From positions 1 to 23,717 of IMG/VR virus record IMGVR_UViG_3300033153_001771: DNA of 23,717 nt; one strand, 5' to 3'. A model generated the notes under the pieces. The model ran no database searches and was not told the origin of the DNA. It saw only the letters and a program-made list of their open reading frames with translations. Origin of the DNA: a virus. The translations under genes and the position numbers were made by a program. Positions within the stretch are counted from its first letter, which is position 1; the number at the start of each line of letters is the position of its first letter. Below are positions 3,069-23,695 of this stretch, piece after piece.

Positions 3069-3481
3069 TATCCTAACCTCACATACATATATGCTGGTTT
3101 ACCTTCTTTAGTCCATCGGAGCATTATACTCTCCTGACTAAAACCTAAATGCTCAACTGTGTTTATAGCCTCTACAAAGTCACACTCTACAGCAGCCATT
3201 AATCTCTTAATTCCGTGGTCTTTCATCATAATAGCTAACCACTCTTTCATTGTACGATATACTTTTCTTATATTATCTTTTGCATGTTCACTAAGGTCAA
3301 CCCACGCCCACGCAACTGTGGGTGTCACTATCTTCATTCCGCCAACGGCGAGAAGCTTTCCGCCATGCTCTAAAGCATATACGTAATCCAACATTTCCGG
3401 CTGTTCCTTAAAACAACCTCTAGATATAGTATGGTCTGCCATATACTCCAAATCAGATTGTATTGCTTCTCGAAACTTCAA
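3068..3481 (-). CDS. GNAT-fold protein, T7 gp13-like internal virion protein
   Basis: This protein has 137 residues. The N-terminus (MKFREAIQSDLEYMADH) and the segments KLLAVGGMKIV, a helix around KVYRTMKEWL and the C-terminal HLGFSQESIMLRW follow the beta-alpha layout of N-acetyltransferase (GNAT) folds. Small GNAT-like proteins of this length next to gp14 homologues are the gp13-type proteins of T7-like phages. The canonical acetyl-CoA loop (Q/RxxGxG/A) is not evident, so enzymatic activity is doubtful. The start is a TTG at 3481 overlapping the tail-fibre stop (TTGA), with a good GGAG eight bases upstream; the first ATG in frame comes only at codon 14. The gene is coupled to its upstream neighbour. 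Confidence 0.75.
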   Translation of the reverse strand: MKFREAIQSDLEYMADHTISRGCFKEQPEMLDYVYALEHGGKLLAVGGMKIVTPTVAWAWVDLSEHAKDNIRKVYRTMKEWLAIMMKDHGIKRLMAAVECDFVEAINTVEHLGFSQESIMLRWTKEGKPAYMYVRLG

Positions 3482-4761
3482 ACTGCTATCTCCGTAATTG
3501 TTATACTAGACGCACACACGCCACCATATCTCCGGTTTGTTCCTGACCCATTAAAAGTAATTGTTCCACTTGCCCCTCCAATGCGAATCCTGAAAGTTGT
3601 GGAATCAGTTGTACCAGCTTCCATGTAATGCCTCAAAACAATAGTTTCTGGTGAATTGGCAGTTGTATACTGACCCGTCGCTGCTAGAGCGGCAGCAGTA
3701 GCATCTTGGAAAAGCGCCACTGTAGTAATATCGTTTGTATCGACACAACAATGAACAATAGCTTCTATCATAAGCTTGTTTGCAGATGCGGCGGGCTTAA
3801 TTGCACGAGTCAGCACTTCCAAACCATCACCAATATCTGGTATATCATCACTATAGGCTATATTAGAAGCACTGTCATTAACTGCCGTAATTGTAGTATT
3901 CACAATTTTTACTATTGAACCAGCAGCATCAATAGAGTCGTCTACATACTTTTTGTTTGCTACTTCATAATCTGCGTCGGGAACATCAGAAGGGGTGATT
4001 GGGAAAACATCAAAGGTATTTTCAGCAGTAAAAGTATTCTCTGCATCCAAGATAGCCGCAGTAGCCACTTCTGTATCGACGTATGTCTTTGTTGCTTTTT
4101 GTGTCGCTACCACAGTATCAGAATTAGCGTCAAGGGTACCGTCGGTATCAATGTTAAGCGTTGCGACATCTCCCAACGCAAGGGTTGTTCTTGCGGCGGC
4201 AGCATTGGCAGCTTCGGCCAATGCCGTTCCAGTAGCAGTCATGGTTACGTCGCCAGGATCAACTGCCGTAGCTGCGGTTGGCACACCAGCCGAGTTAAAC
4301 AATAGGTACTTACTGGCTCTATCAGCTGCACTTGGAAGGACAAGTGAGTTCGTGGCCGTACTATCACAATCTGGCATACGGACGCATCTGTCCAGGCCGT
4401 CCTTATTCTCTATGGCCAACTTTGTTACCTTGTCCAAAGCATCTTCAATGTTCTCGGCACTAAATGCACCACCATCTTCAAGGTCTAAAGTCTGAGTCCT
4501 TGGGGTTTTGCGGATGATATGAATATATTTATCGGCGGATACAAATGGGTCAACCGTTAGAATACTGCCACCGTCTTCCCCATTGTTTGTGACAACATAA
4601 TGCGTTGTTTCCGTAAGAGTTTCTTCAACACCAGTAGTCGTTACTATTGTCTTAACCACAATATCGCTATTGGAGACTATAGGGAACGTAAAAGCCACAG
4701 TCTGTTCCTCGCCAGTGCCAATTGTTCCTGTGGTTCTGTTCGTTTGATTAGATACAGTCAT
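3478..4761 (-). CDS. Tail fibre protein with T7 gp17-like N-terminal domain, 427 aa
   Basis: Residues 1 to about 125 match the layout of the T7 gp17 N-terminal, tail-binding domain. There is a short start, then VAFTFPIVSNSDIVVKTI, a THYVV strand, a SADKYIHIIRKT strand, and a helix (NIEDALDKVTKLAIENKDGLDR). The middle is an Ala/Thr/Asp-rich shaft with repeated NTFTAENTF and KKYVDDSID elements. The C-terminal 140 residues are beta-rich (LMIEAIVHCCVDTND, FRIRIGGASGTITF) and probably form the receptor-binding or trimerisation head. It sits between tail tubular B and the gp13-like gene, whereas T7 places its fibre gene after gp16. A good GGAAGGTGA ribosome site precedes the ATG. The attachment role is well supported; the host receptor is unknown. 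Confidence 0.88.
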   Translation of the reverse strand: MTVSNQTNRTTGTIGTGEEQTVAFTFPIVSNSDIVVKTIVTTTGVEETLTETTHYVVTNNGEDGGSILTVDPFVSADKYIHIIRKTPRTQTLDLEDGGAFSAENIEDALDKVTKLAIENKDGLDRCVRMPDCDSTATNSLVLPSAADRASKYLLFNSAGVPTAATAVDPGDVTMTATGTALAEAANAAAARTTLALGDVATLNIDTDGTLDANSDTVVATQKATKTYVDTEVATAAILDAENTFTAENTFDVFPITPSDVPDADYEVANKKYVDDSIDAAGSIVKIVNTTITAVNDSASNIAYSDDIPDIGDGLEVLTRAIKPAASANKLMIEAIVHCCVDTNDITTVALFQDATAAALAATGQYTTANSPETIVLRHYMEAGTTDSTTFRIRIGGASGTITFNGSGTNRRYGGVCASSITITEIAV

Positions 4762-7030: not shown

Positions 7031-7632
7031 TCAAAGTATGAGTTTATTTTACTCGCGTCCCTATTGAAAGAGTAAGCGCTAATCCATGTTGACATGCTAT
7101 TCCTTCCTATGGTATTTGTCTCCTGCCTGGTAACTGTTCTTACAGTTCTGATAAGTTCTCTGAACTCGTCTTTTAATTCCTTTGACAACACCTTATCCTG
7201 CGATATTGCCATTGATAACTTAATAGCTAACTGCAATACAAGAGCTTCAACAAAAAGAGCGTCAAACTTAGTGGGATCAGTGACCTTCTTAACGTACACA
7301 ATTTCTGCCGAACTATCGTCTGTTAAAAGTTTTTCGCCTTCAATCTTAAAAGTTGACCACGTATTGTAAAGCGAAACCAATCGCATGAAATCTGCTGGTA
7401 AATCAAACTGATTGTCATATTCAAAATCGGGGGCGGAAGCATCTTCTGATAAAGTAGCCCTCGCCTTCGCAAAAGACCACGAGTTACTTCTGAGTAAAGC
7501 GTCTCTTGTCTGTTCGTAAAATGTCCTGCACCAAATCGCTTCAGGCGTAGTGTCAGTATCTATATCATTGATTCTCTTACTACCAACCTTAGCTAAAGCA
7601 AGGTTGCAAATCTTAGTTTCAGAGAGTGCCAT
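7027..7632 (-). CDS. Tail tubular protein A (T7 gp11-like), 201 aa
   Basis: This 201-residue protein begins MALSETKICNLALAKVGSKR and continues with WCRTFYEQTRDALLRSNSWSFAKARATL. That is the conserved signature of gp11-type tail tube gatekeepers, which bridge the portal and the nozzle. A second typical element is the YDNQFDLPADFMRLVSLYN motif. Length matches the family. It overlaps the stop of the 72-residue membrane protein as TAATG upstream and overlaps tail tubular B as ATGA downstream, so three genes are translationally linked. Confidence 0.95.
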   Translation of the reverse strand: MALSETKICNLALAKVGSKRINDIDTDTTPEAIWCRTFYEQTRDALLRSNSWSFAKARATLSEDASAPDFEYDNQFDLPADFMRLVSLYNTWSTFKIEGEKLLTDDSSAEIVYVKKVTDPTKFDALFVEALVLQLAIKLSMAISQDKVLSKELKDEFRELIRTVRTVTRQETNTIGRNSMSTWISAYSFNRDASKINSYFE

Positions 7633-7850
7633 TATTTAATTCCCTTAAAAAAATAAATCAACAAACCGACAGTGACAGAGATTGCACCACCAATTAAACC
7701 CCACACGCCACTTTTTACTTTTAGCATGGCTATATCAACTCTAAGTTTACTTACTTCGCTCTTTACGCTCTCTTGCCCGTCGCTCAATCTCTCAAGCTCT
7801 GACAATACGTGTCTAGACCATTCAAACCATCCATTCTTCTGTTCACTCAT
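7632..7850 (-). CDS. Small C-terminal membrane protein, XhlA/holin-like
   Basis: This has 72 residues. The N-terminal two thirds form an amphipathic helix or short coiled coil (residues about 12-45, LSELERLSDGQESVKSEVSK). One hydrophobic segment follows at about 49-67 (VWGLIGGAISVTVGLLIYFF), with a basic tail. This topology resembles haemolysin XhlA-type and some phage holin-associated proteins. It lies inside the structural operon between the beta-helix-like gene and tail tubular A, with ATGA and TAATG overlaps on either side. Its role could be lysis or a virion membrane protein; sequence alone does not decide. Confidence 0.7.
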   Translation of the reverse strand: MSEQKNGWFEWSRHVLSELERLSDGQESVKSEVSKLRVDIAMLKVKSGVWGLIGGAISVTVGLLIYFFKGIK

Positions 7851-15731: not shown

Positions 15732-17353
15732 TATGCCTCCATAAGCTTTCCGGCTGGAGAACCTTCCTCCGGCGCCTTGTTAGTTTTAGAATACGCCTGA
15801 GAAGCAACTTCAGCAGCTTGTGCCACTTGCTGTGCCTGCATTGCCTGTTGCCTTGCAGCTTTCTTATCCGCTCTCTGTTGTTCAGTTGTAAGGTGTTCAG
15901 TCTTAACACCCCACGACTCTGCCATATCGGGCATTGCAGTATCAATGTTAACCCAATCCAAGGACTCCGGCATGAACTGTGACATACTACCAGCAAATTC
16001 CATAAACTGCATAAAGCCCTTGGCCTGCTGACTTCTTAATGCCAAAGCAAGCTCACCTCTATATTCAATGCCAAAGTCAGTCAATCCCATTGGAGGAGGA
16101 GGTAGTCTGCCATTTCTCATTAACAATTTAACAGAACGTGTTATATTTGGTCGTAAAAGTTCAGCTTCGAGCCGAGCCACTGGAGACGCGAGCCTACGAA
16201 GACCCTCTCTTATCCGCTCCGCAACTTCAACGGTAGTCATTCGCTGCGTAAGGTCAGTAAGTGGTACAAAAATGTCCCTATAAAACGCCTGATGTACCTT
16301 TTCTTGTAGATATTCTACAAATTCCTTCGTTATCGGGAAGTTACCCAAAGCATTCTGCTGTATAGCCCCAATAGAATTGCGCTCCTGAACAAAGTTTACT
16401 GCATTCGGAGTTACATTTACCCTACCTTCAAACGTACTTAGAACTTCAAGAGGAGGATTAGTCCACTTATTGCTCAACTCTATAAAATCAAGCATTGCCT
16501 GATTCAGCATCTTCACAAGTGGTAAGACTTCTGTGCCCTGGCCCCTTCCATATACCTCAAATCCAGACTTTTCCCACCTCGGTACTGCAAACGGAAGCTC
16601 TTCAAAACCACCCTCATCTACAATTTTCTTCCCTTTTACGTCTACATAAATAGATTCGTAGGGCATGTTGAGATTGTCTGTTAATGTCGGATTCCTGTCA
16701 CTACGAGGACGAATGATATGGATAAACTCAAATACGTTATTCTCTTTCTTGATGTCCTCAGAGGCTTTTTGTATATCTTCGCTTACATTGTCATAACCAA
16801 ACTGCTGTACGGCTTGCCGAGCAGTCCTGGAAAATGACAGAATCACAGTATCTACAATGCCGTGATTGTTTTCGAGAATCTGATATGTAGATATGTCCCA
16901 GTCTCTAAAGTTCAAGCCACCTTTACTATAATCCCACTCAGAGTATAGATTGCCTGTACCAAAGACCACCAAACTCCGTAAGGTCTCGTTAAGCTGTAAC
17001 ATGAAATTCGATTCAAACATCTCGTCATGTGTTATCTCAGTACTATACGAAAGATATCTCTTGATTTCAGGCCGTTCTCCTAATGACCTGTCCTTAGAAA
17101 CGAGACCAAAGAACTTCTGACCTGTAGGAATCAAAGCAGCGGAAAGACCTGAAGCCATATTCTGTGAATCGAATATAGCAGTAGTATCATATATTTTTCT
17201 CGCCTTGTCATCACCAGGAGTTTGAATATCAGTTATCTGATTCTCGCGTGGGAACATCAGGTCAGCAGTTTCCTGCCATAACTTACGGAAAGTAGCCTGC
17301 CGTGATTGTTCACGGTTACGCAAAGCGATAATGTCTCTTGCTCTTTCACCCAA
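15731..17353 (-). CDS. Head-tail connector (portal), T7 gp8-like, 540 aa
   Basis: The 540-residue length and the sequence RKLWQETADLMFPRENQI, then DTTAIFDSQNMASGLSAALI and PTGQKFFGL, identify the T7-type portal. Later typical segments are DWDISTYQILENNHGIVDTV, FAVPRWEKSGFEVYGRGQGT and a long C-terminal Gln/Ala-rich helix (QQAMQAQQVAQAAEV). Twelve copies form the vertex through which DNA enters and to which the tail attaches. The start is TTG at 17353 with AAGGGG about ten bases upstream, overlapping the end of the proline-rich gene by eight bases. The stop is coupled to the 33-residue gene by TAATG. Confidence 0.93.
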   Translation of the reverse strand: MGERARDIIALRNREQSRQATFRKLWQETADLMFPRENQITDIQTPGDDKARKIYDTTAIFDSQNMASGLSAALIPTGQKFFGLVSKDRSLGERPEIKRYLSYSTEITHDEMFESNFMLQLNETLRSLVVFGTGNLYSEWDYSKGGLNFRDWDISTYQILENNHGIVDTVILSFSRTARQAVQQFGYDNVSEDIQKASEDIKKENNVFEFIHIIRPRSDRNPTLTDNLNMPYESIYVDVKGKKIVDEGGFEELPFAVPRWEKSGFEVYGRGQGTEVLPLVKMLNQAMLDFIELSNKWTNPPLEVLSTFEGRVNVTPNAVNFVQERNSIGAIQQNALGNFPITKEFVEYLQEKVHQAFYRDIFVPLTDLTQRMTTVEVAERIREGLRRLASPVARLEAELLRPNITRSVKLLMRNGRLPPPPMGLTDFGIEYRGELALALRSQQAKGFMQFMEFAGSMSQFMPESLDWVNIDTAMPDMAESWGVKTEHLTTEQQRADKKAARQQAMQAQQVAQAAEVASQAYSKTNKAPEEGSPAGKLMEA

Positions 17354-17540
17354 GGATCGTTTTCCCCTTCTTTGCGGGCTCTAAAGCCCCTGTGATAATA
17401 GTCTTTCTGAAACCACTACGCCTACGCGCCTGCTTACGCGCAAAGTCCTCTGTCTCCGGGGTTACGTCCGGTATAGGCGGAGGCGGCGGTGGCGGTGGTA
17501 ACGGAGCAGGTTTTGATGGCTTACTAAAGAATCCACCCAT
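17346..17540 (-). CDS. Proline-rich small protein upstream of portal, 64 aa
   Basis: This has 64 residues. It begins MGGFFSKPSKP, has a run of eight consecutive prolines around residues 15-22, and has a basic C-terminal half (RKQARRRSGFRKTIITGAL). A short protein with Pro stretch followed by RRxGxxxTIxTG is often found just before portal genes in podoviruses; its function is not known to me. An AGGTGAGATATT ribosome site precedes the ATG, and that site overlaps the stop of the 39-residue gene. The end overlaps the portal start. Confidence 0.75.
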   Translation of the reverse strand: MGGFFSKPSKPAPLPPPPPPPPIPDVTPETEDFARKQARRRSGFRKTIITGALEPAKKGKTILG

Positions 17541-17706: not shown

Positions 17707-19332
17707 TTACATTATTTTATATTCAGAAATCGCATATTCCTGTCTAGGAACAGTGCTTACACTTGCTATCCTTGCGCCCGAAGCTGCAAGCGAAAAGTAA
17801 TTCATTGCGTTTCTGTAATGGTCGCCACCGGAACCTAAGGATCGATATCTGTATATCTTAGTTCCCGACCGCTTATTTGTTTCAAGGACTTTGGCACAAT
17901 TACACATTTGCTTAGCAAATTCGTCTATTTCCTTACACCTTCTCGGTAATACTACTTGCTGCTTCATAATCATTCTGTGCGTTGTGTCGAATATCTCGGT
18001 TCTGTTTACTTTAACTATTCCTGTATTATTGTTATATGAAGTGCCTATAGTAGAAGTTTCAGAGTATTCGCATAAAAATATCTTGTACGGTTCCGCCGCT
18101 TGGAATGTTCTTGCTGCATCTTCGTAAGGCCTAATATCTATTACGGCACTCTTTACGTTAAATCTTTTGGCTATATCATGTATATCATTCCAATCTGATA
18201 GCTGAATAACCTTTAGAATCTCGTAATTGTCCATGCCGGTTCTAGCACCGATAACTACGTGTTTTATCTTGCCTACGTCAACCCCCATTGCACATGGCCC
18301 TTTACTAAACGTCTGTTGTATATCAGGGCCACAACACTTAAATACGGCGTCATGGGTCAACTTATCCTCAGCGGCTACATAAGGCAGACCTAACCTTAAT
18401 CTGTATACATCACCAATGTTGCCCTGCGGTGGGTCGTTGAAGTCTGTTAGGATTTCGTAAGGGTCGTTAAATACACTTGAAAGTTGAGACCATCTATACC
18501 CGTGCATAAAGTCTGTATTCTCTCGTTTAGAAGGAACCCACTCAATCATGTCAGGATTAGATATGCCTACCTCCTTCCCGCATTTATCACAACCTATATA
18601 CCCTATACCGTTTTTTGTTTTTACGCACTCCGGAAATGAGAGTTCCGCGCAGGTCCAATGGTTACAAGTACATTTTCTGAATAGGTGCCGCTGGTCGGAT
18701 TTCTGGAAGATTTTGTCTATCCCGTAATCTGGTAGTGTAGGGTTGGATATGAACGCCTCTTCCTTAATCTTCGAAGCTCCCATCCTCATGCGGGCCTTGG
18801 TAATAATTTCCTCGTCCATCAGGTCAACTTCATCAAAAACAACTCTATCTACAGGAATTGACCGCAATTGAGTGGATTCCTTTGCGTCGTCACCACTTCC
18901 TATCTTCTGAGATAATCTGGCACCTCTTAAATATAAGAAAGCATCGTGTATTTTCTTTAGTGATGTAGTGTCTGTGCCCCTGCCACCAGACTTTACATAT
19001 TTACCTATGGAGTCCCTGTTTGCCTGAATCAGCGGATTAAACCGAGATTTACTAAACTCACCAACATTATCAGTCGTTGGGAATAAATATAAAACACCTT
19101 TAGGATACCTCCGGAATATCATGCCGTGTAAAGACTTCAAAACCTCAAGCTCGGTAAAACCGCCCTGCGTAGCCTTCATATAACATAAACGTCTTGCCGT
19201 ACTCTGCAAAGGCTCTAACTGATAACCATGGTCCTCAAACGAAAATGTACAAGTCTGTAACTGAATCTTATTCAATTCAGCCCAATAAGCGCAATCAGCC
19301 TGAGCTATTATAGTTGGGTCAATTTCCATCAT
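17707..19332 (-). CDS. Terminase large subunit, GpA-like, 541 aa
   Basis: This is the ATP-driven DNA packaging motor and nuclease. A deviant Walker A (MKATQGGFTE, residues about 52-61) resembles the KSARVGYSK loop of lambda gpA. Walker B is VDRVVFDEVD (161-170). A zinc-finger-like region has cysteines near 221, 223, 228, 236, 248 and 251. The RNase H-like nuclease begins MGVDVGK (349-355), with a second acidic strand at AVIDIRPYEDAARTF. This is the GpA family, unlike T7 gp19. The first of two ATGs (19332) overlaps the stop of the 23-residue gene as ATGA. Length is somewhat short of lambda gpA. Confidence 0.93.
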   Translation of the reverse strand: MMEIDPTIIAQADCAYWAELNKIQLQTCTFSFEDHGYQLEPLQSTARRLCYMKATQGGFTELEVLKSLHGMIFRRYPKGVLYLFPTTDNVGEFSKSRFNPLIQANRDSIGKYVKSGGRGTDTTSLKKIHDAFLYLRGARLSQKIGSGDDAKESTQLRSIPVDRVVFDEVDLMDEEIITKARMRMGASKIKEEAFISNPTLPDYGIDKIFQKSDQRHLFRKCTCNHWTCAELSFPECVKTKNGIGYIGCDKCGKEVGISNPDMIEWVPSKRENTDFMHGYRWSQLSSVFNDPYEILTDFNDPPQGNIGDVYRLRLGLPYVAAEDKLTHDAVFKCCGPDIQQTFSKGPCAMGVDVGKIKHVVIGARTGMDNYEILKVIQLSDWNDIHDIAKRFNVKSAVIDIRPYEDAARTFQAAEPYKIFLCEYSETSTIGTSYNNNTGIVKVNRTEIFDTTHRMIMKQQVVLPRRCKEIDEFAKQMCNCAKVLETNKRSGTKIYRYRSLGSGGDHYRNAMNYFSLAASGARIASVSTVPRQEYAISEYKIM

Positions 19333-19400
19333 TTAGTCAACCACGCATAAATAACAAGTAGAAACATGAACACCATTATTGTGTATACGAAGTAAGTCAT
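19329..19400 (-). CDS. 23-residue single-pass membrane peptide
   Basis: An ATG at 19400 opens a 23-codon frame (MTYFVYTIMVFMFLLVIYAW, then LTK). It is almost wholly hydrophobic with a basic end, forming one membrane-spanning helix. Its start overlaps the stop of the Gly/Arg-rich gene (ATGA), and its stop overlaps the terminase start (ATGA). This exact coupling on both sides argues for real translation despite the size. Function is unknown; it could tether terminase or packaging components to the membrane, act as a small holin, or serve only as a coupling leader. Confidence 0.6.
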   Translation of the reverse strand: MTYFVYTIMVFMFLLVIYAWLTK

Positions 19401-19546
19401 TTCCTGCCCGTACCATTCCCCCTCCCACCACCACGACCGTGACCTGGACCACCACTCCTGCAACCACCAGTATTTCTATTACGCCTACCTCCTCCTGCAC
19501 GACCCCTGCCCTTACCACTACCATTCTTAGTACCGTATCTGGCCAT
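19397..19546 (-). CDS. Gly/Arg-rich small protein, 49 aa
   Basis: An ATG at 19546 with AAGGAAG just upstream opens a 49-codon frame (MARYGTKNGSGKGRGRAGGG, then RRNRNTGG and GRGGGRGNGTGR). Nearly two thirds of residues are Gly or Arg in RGG-like repeats, with one Cys. It is expected to be disordered and to bind nucleic acid. It lies directly before the membrane peptide and large terminase, to which it is coupled by ATGA. An open frame of 63 codons in another phase (Val/Gly-rich) covers the same bases and is judged a shadow. A role in packaging or RNA/DNA binding is inference. Confidence 0.7.
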   Translation of the reverse strand: MARYGTKNGSGKGRGRAGGGRRNRNTGGCRSGGPGHGRGGGRGNGTGRK

Positions 19547-19598
19547 TATCTTCCTTTCATTCCAAAATCAATATATATGTCTGAGGTCATAATGTTAT

Positions 19599-19754
19599 TC
19601 ACGACCCCGCCCCCTTTGGGGGGTTTGCCCTTATTCTGACGTAAGTACCCCTTATGCCATTATTCCTATTACTCATTCTAGGTGCATGTTTATTGGTCAA
19701 AAATGACCTTGCCCCAGCGCTGGGTATAAAAAGGCTACGTCGATTTATCGTCAT
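19599..19754 (-). CDS. Possible small basic protein, 51 aa
   Basis: An ATG at 19754 opens a 51-codon frame (MTINRRSLFIPSAGARSFLT and on to ANPPKGAGS). AAGGATAAGGA precedes it. The frame runs across two palindromes, and its composition is not convincing. A 15-codon frame with a better ribosome site (GAGGTATT, ATG at 19782, stop at 19735) overlaps its start. A 14-codon frame (19590-19546) links to the Gly/Arg-rich gene by TAATG. Any or none of these may be translated; no family is recognised. Confidence 0.3.
   Translation of the reverse strand: MTINRRSLFIPSAGARSFLTNKHAPRMSNRNNGIRGTYVRIRANPPKGAGS
19695..19724. repeat. Adjacent inverted repeat and 12-base perfect palindrome
   Basis: GGTCA-AAAA-TGACC (19695-19708) is followed four bases later by the perfect palindrome CCCAGCGCTGGG (19713-19724). 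About 100 bases to the left a further G/C inverted repeat (CCCCC-TTT-GGGGG, near 19611-19623) is seen. The block lies between the small and large terminase genes, where packaging recognition (cos or pac) sites lie in many phages. A protein-binding or RNA hairpin role is equally possible. Confidence 0.55.
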
Positions 19755-19795
19755 TGTCCTTATCCTTACAAAACATTAACATAATACCTCAATGC

Positions 19796-20563
19796 CTATT
19801 CTTGGTCCTTGTGCGCCCTAGAATCAATTATCTCTGTTTTATCGACCTGTACTATGTTTTCATTATTATAATCGCCCATAGAATCTATGCTGCAGTGTTT
19901 TTCTGCATCCTGTAGCTCTGTAATGCTTGGAGAGCACCCTATATCGCCCTCATTCTCAACGTCTATGGCGTTATCTAGTAATGCTTGTTTTTGAATCTGC
20001 TTCAGTCTTATAGTTGCTAATGCCTGATATTCTGCACGTTCTCGCTCTGATAACTGCTTCAATTGTTCACTTTCTATATTGAGATTATCAGTGAATATGC
20101 CTAGTGTTCTACCAAGCTTTTCTAAGGCATCTAAACGATTGTAAAGCTCTAACTGAACATTAGTTCCGTTTTGCGTATGGCTTATTTTACAGCTCTTAAT
20201 TAGCTTGGTATTGTATCCCATTCTTTTTAATTCGCCCAAGCTGGTTTTTCCTTGTAAGTACTTTTCAAAGCTGGAGATATCACCGCAAAAAGCTATTTCA
20301 GCAAGTGCTATCTTTATACGTTCAGGAGTGATCGCATAATCGTGAAGTCCTTGTTTTATCGCATCTTGCACCCTCGGTGTCTTGATAAGCTGACAACCTG
20401 ATACTCCTGGATCACTATAACCAGCTATCTCTGCTGCCTGTTTATGTTTAAATCCATTAGTTAGATACTCTTGTACGAATATTGCTTGCTTATCTGTAAG
20501 CTTCTTAGTACCTAGAGGTGGTAAAGCAATTCTTTTTAATTCCGTCTGCGATTCATTACTCAT
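19796..20563 (-). CDS. Terminase small subunit, 255 aa
   Basis: Residues about 21-70 read KLTDKQAIFVQEYLTNGFKH then KQAAEIAGYSDPGVSGCQLI. This is the helix-turn-helix signature of small terminase subunits (Terminase_2 type), which recognise the packaging site and load DNA onto the large subunit. The rest contains charged helices (AEYQALATIRLKQIQKQALL) and an acidic C-terminal third (residues 195-255). At 255 residues it is longer than many relatives because of that tail. The start ATG at 20563 has AAGGAG 13 bases upstream, a long spacing. It is first in the minus operon, about 45 bases after its promoter. Confidence 0.88.
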   Translation of the reverse strand: MSNESQTELKRIALPPLGTKKLTDKQAIFVQEYLTNGFKHKQAAEIAGYSDPGVSGCQLIKTPRVQDAIKQGLHDYAITPERIKIALAEIAFCGDISSFEKYLQGKTSLGELKRMGYNTKLIKSCKISHTQNGTNVQLELYNRLDALEKLGRTLGIFTDNLNIESEQLKQLSERERAEYQALATIRLKQIQKQALLDNAIDVENEGDIGCSPSITELQDAEKHCSIDSMGDYNNENIVQVDKTEIIDSRAHKDQE

Positions 20564-20608
20564 TTTCGCTTGTTTACTCCTTATTCTAATTTCGGAAAAT
20601 CTACACTA

Positions 20609-23054: not shown

Positions 23055-23360
23055 ATGAATTGCGAAAACTGTGAAAATTATATCCCCACTAAAGGCTATC
23101 GCCCCGGCGATAGATTTGAACTTAAATTTGAAAGCAGTAGTATTATCTGCCTTTTGATCGGCATCAACGGAAAGTACCGTTTGGTGAACTTAGTAAATGG
23201 GGGATTCCCCGGTGAGGAAATAGACGTAGGAACCTCTTGTAGTTTGCCGCTGAATAAGTCACAAATAGTCAAACTGACGGGAAACGCGACAGAATGGGCT
23301 TGTGTTTCACGTCGCTTTTCGGAACCTCTATACCCAGACTTTCATAAGGTAGAAAAATGA
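23055..23360 (+). CDS. Hypothetical protein, 101 aa
   Basis: The ATG at 23055 has AGGAAA about eight bases upstream. The protein starts MNCENCENYIPTKGYRPGDR, so cysteines at residues 3 and 6 form a CxxC pair. A beta-rich section follows (FELKFESSSIICLLIGINGK, YRLVNLVNGGFPGEEI), and it ends with charged and aromatic residues. The GDRF...G-KYRLVNLxxG shape resembles small beta-barrel proteins, but I cannot name a family. It overlaps the lysozyme-like gene by ATGA. Confidence 0.7.
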   Translation: MNCENCENYIPTKGYRPGDRFELKFESSSIICLLIGINGKYRLVNLVNGGFPGEEIDVGTSCSLPLNKSQIVKLTGNATEWACVSRRFSEPLYPDFHKVEK

Positions 23361-23695
23361 CTGAGCAAATACTGCTAAATCTGTTTCTGGCTATCTGTGC
23401 AGTAGAGTCAGGGAATAACCCTAACGCTGTAAATTTGAAAGAAAATGCTGTTGGGGTGGCGCAAATACGCCCTATCATGGTTCGGGACGTTAATCGTATT
23501 TGTGGCGCTCCGGTGTTCGGGTTAAAAGATAGATACGATCCTGAAGCTTCCTACGAGATGTTCAAGATTTATATCAAACATTACGGCGCTAAAACGCCAC
23601 GTGAGGTGTCAATGCAATGGAACGGAGGCCCGAAAGGGTATGAAAAGAAAAGCACACTTGGATATTGGCGAAAGGTGCAAAGGAGAATGAAATGA
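23357..23695 (+). CDS. Lysozyme/lytic transglycosylase-like protein, 112 aa
   Basis: The sequence LNLFLAICAVESGNNPNAVN is followed by ENAVGVAQIRPIMVRDVNRI and later MQWNGGPKGYEK. This matches the soluble lytic transglycosylase/lysozyme fold: a helix ending in the catalytic Glu (ES-GNNPxA), then a GVAQI hairpin, then a WNGGP motif. It would cleave peptidoglycan. At 112 residues it is near the minimal size for the fold, with no signal peptide, so it would need a holin or be used otherwise. AAGGTAG precedes the ATG, which overlaps the upstream stop. It may be the endolysin or a virion-independent muralytic enzyme. Confidence 0.8.
   Translation: MTEQILLNLFLAICAVESGNNPNAVNLKENAVGVAQIRPIMVRDVNRICGAPVFGLKDRYDPEASYEMFKIYIKHYGAKTPREVSMQWNGGPKGYEKKSTLGYWRKVQRRMK

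Follow-up and report, generated by a model that had tools for sequence, protein, structure and literature searches.

The window analysed here is a 23,717-bp virus record from IMG/VR (IMGVR_UViG_3300033153_001771), in which two very small genes, GR49 and TM23, lie between the small and large terminase genes, terS and terL. The genes studied are all on the minus strand:

19796..20563, minus strand: terS, small terminase, 255 amino acids (aa), matching PF03592 (1.7e-12) and phrog_51
19599..19754, minus strand: 51-aa open reading frame (ORF) between terS and GR49, with a 5-nucleotide (nt) Shine–Dalgarno sequence
19604..19630, minus strand: conserved G/C-run element gggcaaACCCCCCAAAGGGGGCGGGG, between terS and the two small genes
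19550..19557, minus strand: Shine–Dalgarno sequence of GR49, AAAGGAAG
19397..19546, minus strand: GR49, Gly/Arg-rich protein, 49 aa
19329..19400, minus strand: TM23, single-helix micro-ORF of 23 aa, MTYFVYTIMVFMFLLVIYAWLTK, with ATGA overlaps with GR49 and with terL
17707..19332, minus strand: terL, large terminase, GpA-like ATPase, 541 aa

The product of terL fits a GpA-like large terminase (PF05876, 1.4e-13; best PHROG phrog_675, 1.5e-75). A preliminary description of this sequence had correctly observed that the 49-codon Gly/Arg-rich frame, the 23-codon single-helix frame and terL are linked by two ATGA overlaps. Its view that the small frames fit each other and terL is also supported, GR49 being very probably a gene and TM23 a plausible single-span membrane peptide. 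The TM23 frame stays open further upstream to a TTG start, which makes a product of 44 aa, and terL could alternatively start at a second ATG (ATGATGG), giving a 1-nt TGATG overlap instead of the ATGA. The Shine–Dalgarno match is 6 nt long for GR49 and 3 nt each for TM23 and terL. This pattern fits ribosome entry at GR49 with re-initiation downstream, and we infer translation and coupling of the three frames.

Relatives were collected by TerL and portal searches (L002–L103 and L111–L152 from IMG/VR, L104–L110 from GTDB), and the comparison set comprised 102 non-redundant terL loci, including the window, all with sufficient sequence ahead of terL. The terL start overlapped an upstream ORF by 1–20 nt in 55 of the 102 loci, and by exactly 4 nt in 20. 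Since chains of two overlaps (1 or 4 nt) preceded 10/102 terL genes and 69/948 other long ORFs, the double ATGA overlap is by itself ordinary. One relative, L075 (775–1247), also has two ATGA overlaps leading into terL, with an 80-aa ORF carrying a lipobox-like LFTPGC as the middle gene; the layout matches that of the window, but the protein is different.

Glycine and arginine account for 30 of the 49 residues of GR49. In dinucleotide shuffles the best frame contained 17.7 such residues on average, and none of 20,000 reached 30. All four glycine codons are used, and arginine is encoded by CGT, AGG and AGA; the signal thus lies at the protein level, pointing to selection on the protein and not to a DNA repeat. 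The GR49 Shine–Dalgarno sequence was the joint strongest among eight starts scored, equal to that of the phrog_831 gene that follows terL. GR49 had no tblastn match in 50,697 phage records, which is a weak blank because the low-complexity filter may hide Gly/Arg-rich peptides, and the window DNA from 19300 to 20600 had no match in the phage records. With the filter off, a search of 273 sequences (the window, its duplicate L001 and a further 271 loci) returned many weak rows, mostly G/C-rich stretches, together with Gly/Arg-rich (GR) genes of L209, L032 and L021. The best row outside the window was the L209 gene, which matched along the full 49 residues at 45% (E = 9e-5, uncorrected); among the 101 other terL loci, a weak row covered a GR gene only in L032 and L021. 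Judged by composition, GR49 would most likely be a small, basic protein that binds nucleic acid.

The GR genes in the terL relatives L021 (4615–4719) and L032 (3600–3716) encode small proteins of the type MSKGTPKKDGSGRGIRANRGRGGCKTTRSKGRGR. They belong to a group with the consensus ...KRDGSGxGxRANRGRGGC..., found in more than 100 IMG/VR loci. A pattern scan of viral contigs for the RANRGRGGC block gave at least 120 stretches, a figure to be read as a lower bound on the abundance of the group. Over all loci (L153–L272, L021 and L032) there were at least 122 matches to the block, mostly in proteins of 28–43 aa and many with a good Shine–Dalgarno sequence. Some rows, such as those in L170 and L252, were chance matches, and were removed by demanding GSG in frame. 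The members scanned had no match in Pfam, PHROG or NCBIfam, the sole Pfam row being at chance level and for a different Gly/Lys-rich peptide. A tblastn search with a GR-group peptide found no match in the 50,697 phage records, again a weak blank because the same filter may mask such peptides. The strings RANRGRGGC, DGSGRGVRANRG and GRGVRANRGRGGC were not found in a literature search, and a literature search on small Gly/Arg-rich phage proteins returned nothing relevant. The scans reveal a widespread Gly/Arg-rich phage microprotein group that is apparently undescribed.

GR genes are often closely followed by another gene: an ORF starts −4 to +15 nt from the stop codon of 79/103 GR genes, compared with 565/1027 other long ORFs and 990/3000 random stops. 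Neighbours were defined as the nearest ORFs of at least 150 aa, and were scanned for 57 of 77 GR genes downstream (all within 500 nt) and for 54 of 81 upstream (within 400 nt, with one exception; L157 was omitted for length). Among the PHROGs listed, the commonest annotation was terL (phrog_2; 7/57 downstream, 6/54 upstream), and other terL families contribute a few more neighbours. In L190, 73 nt separate the end of the GR gene from a phrog_675 terL, and the GR gene of L032 lies 272 nt ahead of a terL that is 64% identical to that of the window. L180 (minus strand, 3443–3607) and L190 (minus strand, 693–797; both in reverse-complement coordinates) have similar terL genes, and about 20 residues are inserted in frame in one of their two GR genes. 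This pair carries different genes in the interval from GR to terL, with a repeated VNSLH-coding sequence on both sides.

GR49 resembles the group in its start, MA..G...[ND]GSG[KR]G.(.)RA, in a later GGC, in its basic Gly/Arg tail and in having a close downstream gene, terL being a frequent neighbour of GR genes. It differs in its greater length (49 aa, where most of the group have 33–43 aa), in its GGGRG-rich C-terminal half, and in the RANRGRGGC block, which is broken in GR49 and replaced by RAGGGRRNRNTGGC. Against 60 family N-termini, out of 93 that were usable (M..G..K[RK][DN]GSGxGx(x)RA), the GR49 N-terminus had a mean score of 36.5, compared with 14.3 ± 5.1 for shuffles (0/2000 as high), and its best single match was equalled by 3/2000 shuffles, for a stretch that was picked after the alignment had been seen. 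The whole-protein comparison gave a weak signal: a search of 21,439 short ORFs with a GR-group profile and default filters did not return GR49 at E ≤ 10, and with the filters off its score was matched by 108/5000 shuffles (best domain) or 156/5000 (full score). Because of the weak full-profile score, the lack of a default profile report and the broken RANRGRGGC block, we regard GR49 as probably a divergent relative of the group rather than one of its members.

TM23 is strongly hydrophobic, with a Kyte–Doolittle (KD) value of 2.5 over 15 residues. When the underlying DNA stretch was shuffled, 47% of the shuffles were open, and 2.2% were both open and at least as hydrophobic. The peptide had no tblastn match in the 50,697 phage records, and comparison with known holin families gave no PHROG or NCBIfam match and only chance-level Pfam rows. 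TM23 is possibly more than chance, and is best regarded as a plausible, unproven single-span membrane peptide.

Hydrophobic micro-ORFs also occur ahead of terL in relatives. We counted ORFs with an ATG start, 18–35 codons, a KD value of at least 2.2 over 15 residues, and an end within 12 nt of the start of the next gene. Such ORFs preceded 4/102 terL genes and 4/973 control genes (Fisher p = 0.004), or 3/101 and 4/973 without the window (p = 0.021); these counts are small. The raw control count was 7/976, from which three rows that were terL in duplicate loci were removed; other terL duplicates may remain among the controls. The carriers were the window (23 aa), L040 (22 aa), L111 (25 aa, preceded by a recognisable GAGAGG Shine–Dalgarno sequence) and L150 (33 aa, or 27 aa from an internal start). 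A shuffle test for membrane micro-ORFs with a Shine–Dalgarno sequence near terL gave 6/102 loci where 0.36 were expected. However, the gene-control test is preferred, because shuffles contain no real genes and the entry for the window in the shuffle test is another frame. The recurrence is suggestive rather than conclusive. Several candidates fell outside the limits: a 53-aa ORF ahead of terL in L008 and L009 exceeds the 35-aa cut (its two copies have three nucleotide differences, all three of which change an amino acid); in L038 and L025, hydrophobic ORFs stop 16 and 26 nt short of terL, and both overlap longer ORFs that are read in a different frame; and a 27-aa hydrophobic ORF in L031 ends 57 nt before terL.

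The genes ahead of terL vary greatly among relatives, the closest of which has a terL about 70% identical to that of the window. ORFs of at least 66 aa within 1.3 kb ahead of terL were picked mechanically by a Shine–Dalgarno-like match, with no limit set by terS; 111 were listed, four were omitted and 107 were aligned and scanned, at least one of them being itself a small terminase. These 107 ORFs fell into 86 BLAST families. Their Pfam and PHROG matches were scattered, comprising HNH endonucleases (n = 2) and, among others, single GIY-YIG-type (T5orf172/MUG113), ferredoxin and pyrophosphohydrolase matches. The most direct evidence of exchange comes from two pairs of loci, L146/L149 and L150/L151. 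Their terL genes are 100% identical over 1440 nt, while the 250 nt upstream do not match. The divergence begins within the first terL codons, and a 27-aa hydrophobic micro-ORF lies upstream in one pair only. An assembly chimera is disfavoured, because each form occurs in two contigs that carry different sample numbers. The arrangement is read as a recent swap, joined at the 5' end of terL. The terS–terL interval of this phage group is thus a fast-changing slot, in which ORFs often overlap the terL start; a literature search on a variable terS–terL interval found none described. The claim of the preliminary description that TM23 is locked to the terminase finds no support in this comparison, since upstream genes are exchanged even where terL is identical, and TM23 is absent from all the other terL loci (101/101), the outcome that the preliminary description itself had named as contrary to its claim.

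Between terS and the slot lies the conserved G/C-run element. The pattern ACCCCC(C)A..GG..GG, which was composed after examples had been seen, occurs in 30/102 loci, with 30 matches in the 170,116 nt that precede terL; there were none on the opposite strand of this upstream sequence, and 2 in the 525,679 nt that begin at terL. The consensus from 31 instances is roughly gGGgGG...aaaa.gcc..aACCCCCcAaGGGGgcgGGGg, and the strand-specific element may also be described as G5-9 .. aaaa.GGC..aACCCCCcAAGGGGGcGGGG. Carriers include the window, L031, L032, L033, L043, L059 and L087. As a guess, the element is a candidate packaging (cos/pac) site or a regulatory site, and either role is testable. The C-terminus of the 51-aa ORF runs through the element; this ORF had no Pfam or PHROG match, and is probably not a separate conserved gene.

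The explanation that we favour, with slightly better than even confidence, is that GR49 and TM23 are co-translated accessory cargo in a variable terS–terL slot of a tailed, uncultivated phage whose virion genes are of the podovirus type. GR49, TM23 and terL would form one late co-translated unit: ribosomes would load at the strong GR49 Shine–Dalgarno sequence, re-initiate at the ATGA of TM23, and re-initiate again at the ATGA of terL, whose own Shine–Dalgarno sequence is weak. TM23 would be a non-essential membrane micropeptide, with lysis timing or another envelope effect as its likeliest activity. Position and translation, rather than function, would then tie both small genes to terL; a tiny gene beside a terminase is not, on its own, a sign of a role in packaging.

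Known phages offer partial parallels. Tailed phages have moron slots, where differing small genes occupy a fixed place amid conserved virion genes. The slot described here is similar in this respect, but differs in having terS and a conserved DNA element as its limit on one side and terL on the other, and in the frequent overlap of its ORFs with the start of terL. According to two reports (PMC3276506, PMC8365609), T7 carries its membrane/lysis genes 18.5 and 18.7 in the interval from gene 18 (terS) to gene 19 (terL), and the first of these reports places a T3/T7 recombination crossover inside gene 18.5. The remark in the preliminary description that no described equivalent was known is thus too strong. 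The T7 Rz/Rz1 spanins 18.5 and 18.7 resemble the genes studied here as small membrane-associated genes in different overlapping frames of the same terS–terL interval. However, 18.5 has 143 aa and 18.7 is an 83-aa outer-membrane lipoprotein, whereas TM23 is a 23-aa peptide that lacks a lipobox, and a membrane segment is absent from GR49. The terS–terL location is shared with the spanins; neither the GR49 nor the TM23 sequence shows an outer-membrane lipoprotein with a lipobox or an inner-membrane partner with a periplasmic coil.

Several observations count against the favoured explanation. A 1- or 4-nt upstream overlap is only modestly commoner for terL (29/102) than for other genes (176/948). 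A chance-like G/R-rich stretch in L252 matches GR49 nearly as well as the L209 gene does (E = 1e-4), and a clear GR49 counterpart was found in none of the 271 other loci. A tblastn search with TM23, filters off, recovered only the window and its duplicate L001 from the 273 sequences, the next rows having E = 0.17 and 0.81. No fetched relative keeps TM23 or a clear GR49, so that neither conservation nor the ratio of nonsynonymous to synonymous substitution (dN/dS) speaks for the two genes. The membrane micro-ORFs share no sequence, and the one in L040 falls in T-rich sequence that is hydrophobic in every one of its three frames.

At the level of the TM23 peptide, a membrane or lysis effect is likeliest, a pure coupler comes next and chance third, while terminase docking is disfavoured. 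A specific lysis function, as a mini-holin or pinholin-like micropeptide in the slot that T7 gives to spanin genes 18.5 and 18.7, is possible but unlikely. The single hydrophobic span, which holins and single-helix lysis proteins share, agrees with it, as do the membrane lysis genes that T7 has in the interval from gene 18 to gene 19, the recurrence of micro-ORFs before terL, and the membrane- or lipoprotein-like ORFs ahead of terL in L007 (53 aa), L017 (72 aa), L096 (63 aa) and L075 (a 56-aa ORF in addition to the 80-aa ORF with LFTPGC). On the other hand, TM23 and nine small upstream proteins scanned singly had no lysis-family match, and no lysis family was among the 25 of 29 PHROGs listed for the 107 longer slot ORFs. 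We know of no holin as short as 23 aa, and the window has a weak holin candidate elsewhere (7632..7850). That TM23 is a mere translational coupler or leader for terL, with an irrelevant amino-acid sequence, is doubtful. The exact 4-nt overlap at 20 of the terL genes with very different upstream ORFs agrees with such a coupler, and the weak terL Shine–Dalgarno sequence points the same way; yet so hydrophobic an open frame arose in just 2.2% of shuffles, and hydrophobic micro-ORFs are over-represented ahead of terL.

We give rather little credence to the idea that the TM23 frame is a chance ORF in the short GR49–terL spacer. Its absence from all other fetched loci, the openness of nearly half of the shuffles (47%), the commonness of overlap chains and the weak TM23 Shine–Dalgarno sequence would all be explained, but not the exact ATGA junctions at both ends, the strong hydrophobicity, or the analogous micro-ORFs before terL in relatives, including that of L111 with its GAGAGG. 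The suggestion in the preliminary description that TM23 brings the terminase or packaging to the membrane is very improbable. TM23 does lie directly ahead of terL and overlaps it, but terL occurs with unrelated upstream genes, identical terL genes are found with and without a micro-membrane ORF, and the peptide is present in 0/101 other terL loci. A broader proposal is that the GR microproteins of uncultivated phages form a large, strongly conserved group, often found beside terminase genes, whose members serve as nucleic-acid chaperones or condensers in packaging or late gene expression, and that a divergent form, GR49, is co-translated here with TM23 and terL as a three-part late unit; this proposal is improbable.

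Downstream of terL and elsewhere in the window are three further genes of note:

17346..17540, minus strand: 64-aa phrog_831 protein
7632..7850, minus strand: 72-aa protein with a C-terminal helix in the structural module, the weak holin candidate (phrog_689; lysis, holin; E = 0.056)
23357..23695, plus strand: SLT transglycosylase-like protein (PF01464, 6e-9)

The phrog_831 gene is followed by a head–tail connector protein gene; in L061 and L063, a phrog_831-like protein sits ahead of terL rather than after it. The SLT transglycosylase-like protein is a lysis or entry candidate outside the terS–terL slot. Among the relatives, the terL of L017 (2910–5621) is a continuous frame in which about 340 additional residues separate query residues 59 and 62, adjoining the KATQGG ATP-binding region, and may contain an intein. 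L004 (5980–6003; same contig as L081) has no ATG, GTG or TTG near the expected terL start, only ATA codons. Some terL relatives lie in contigs of metagenome-assembled genomes (MAGs), assigned to Omnitrophota (L110, a 1.14 Mb chromosome contig) and to Phycisphaerales and Sedimentisphaerales (L104/L105); these three loci are possible prophages, and offer a hint as to the host.

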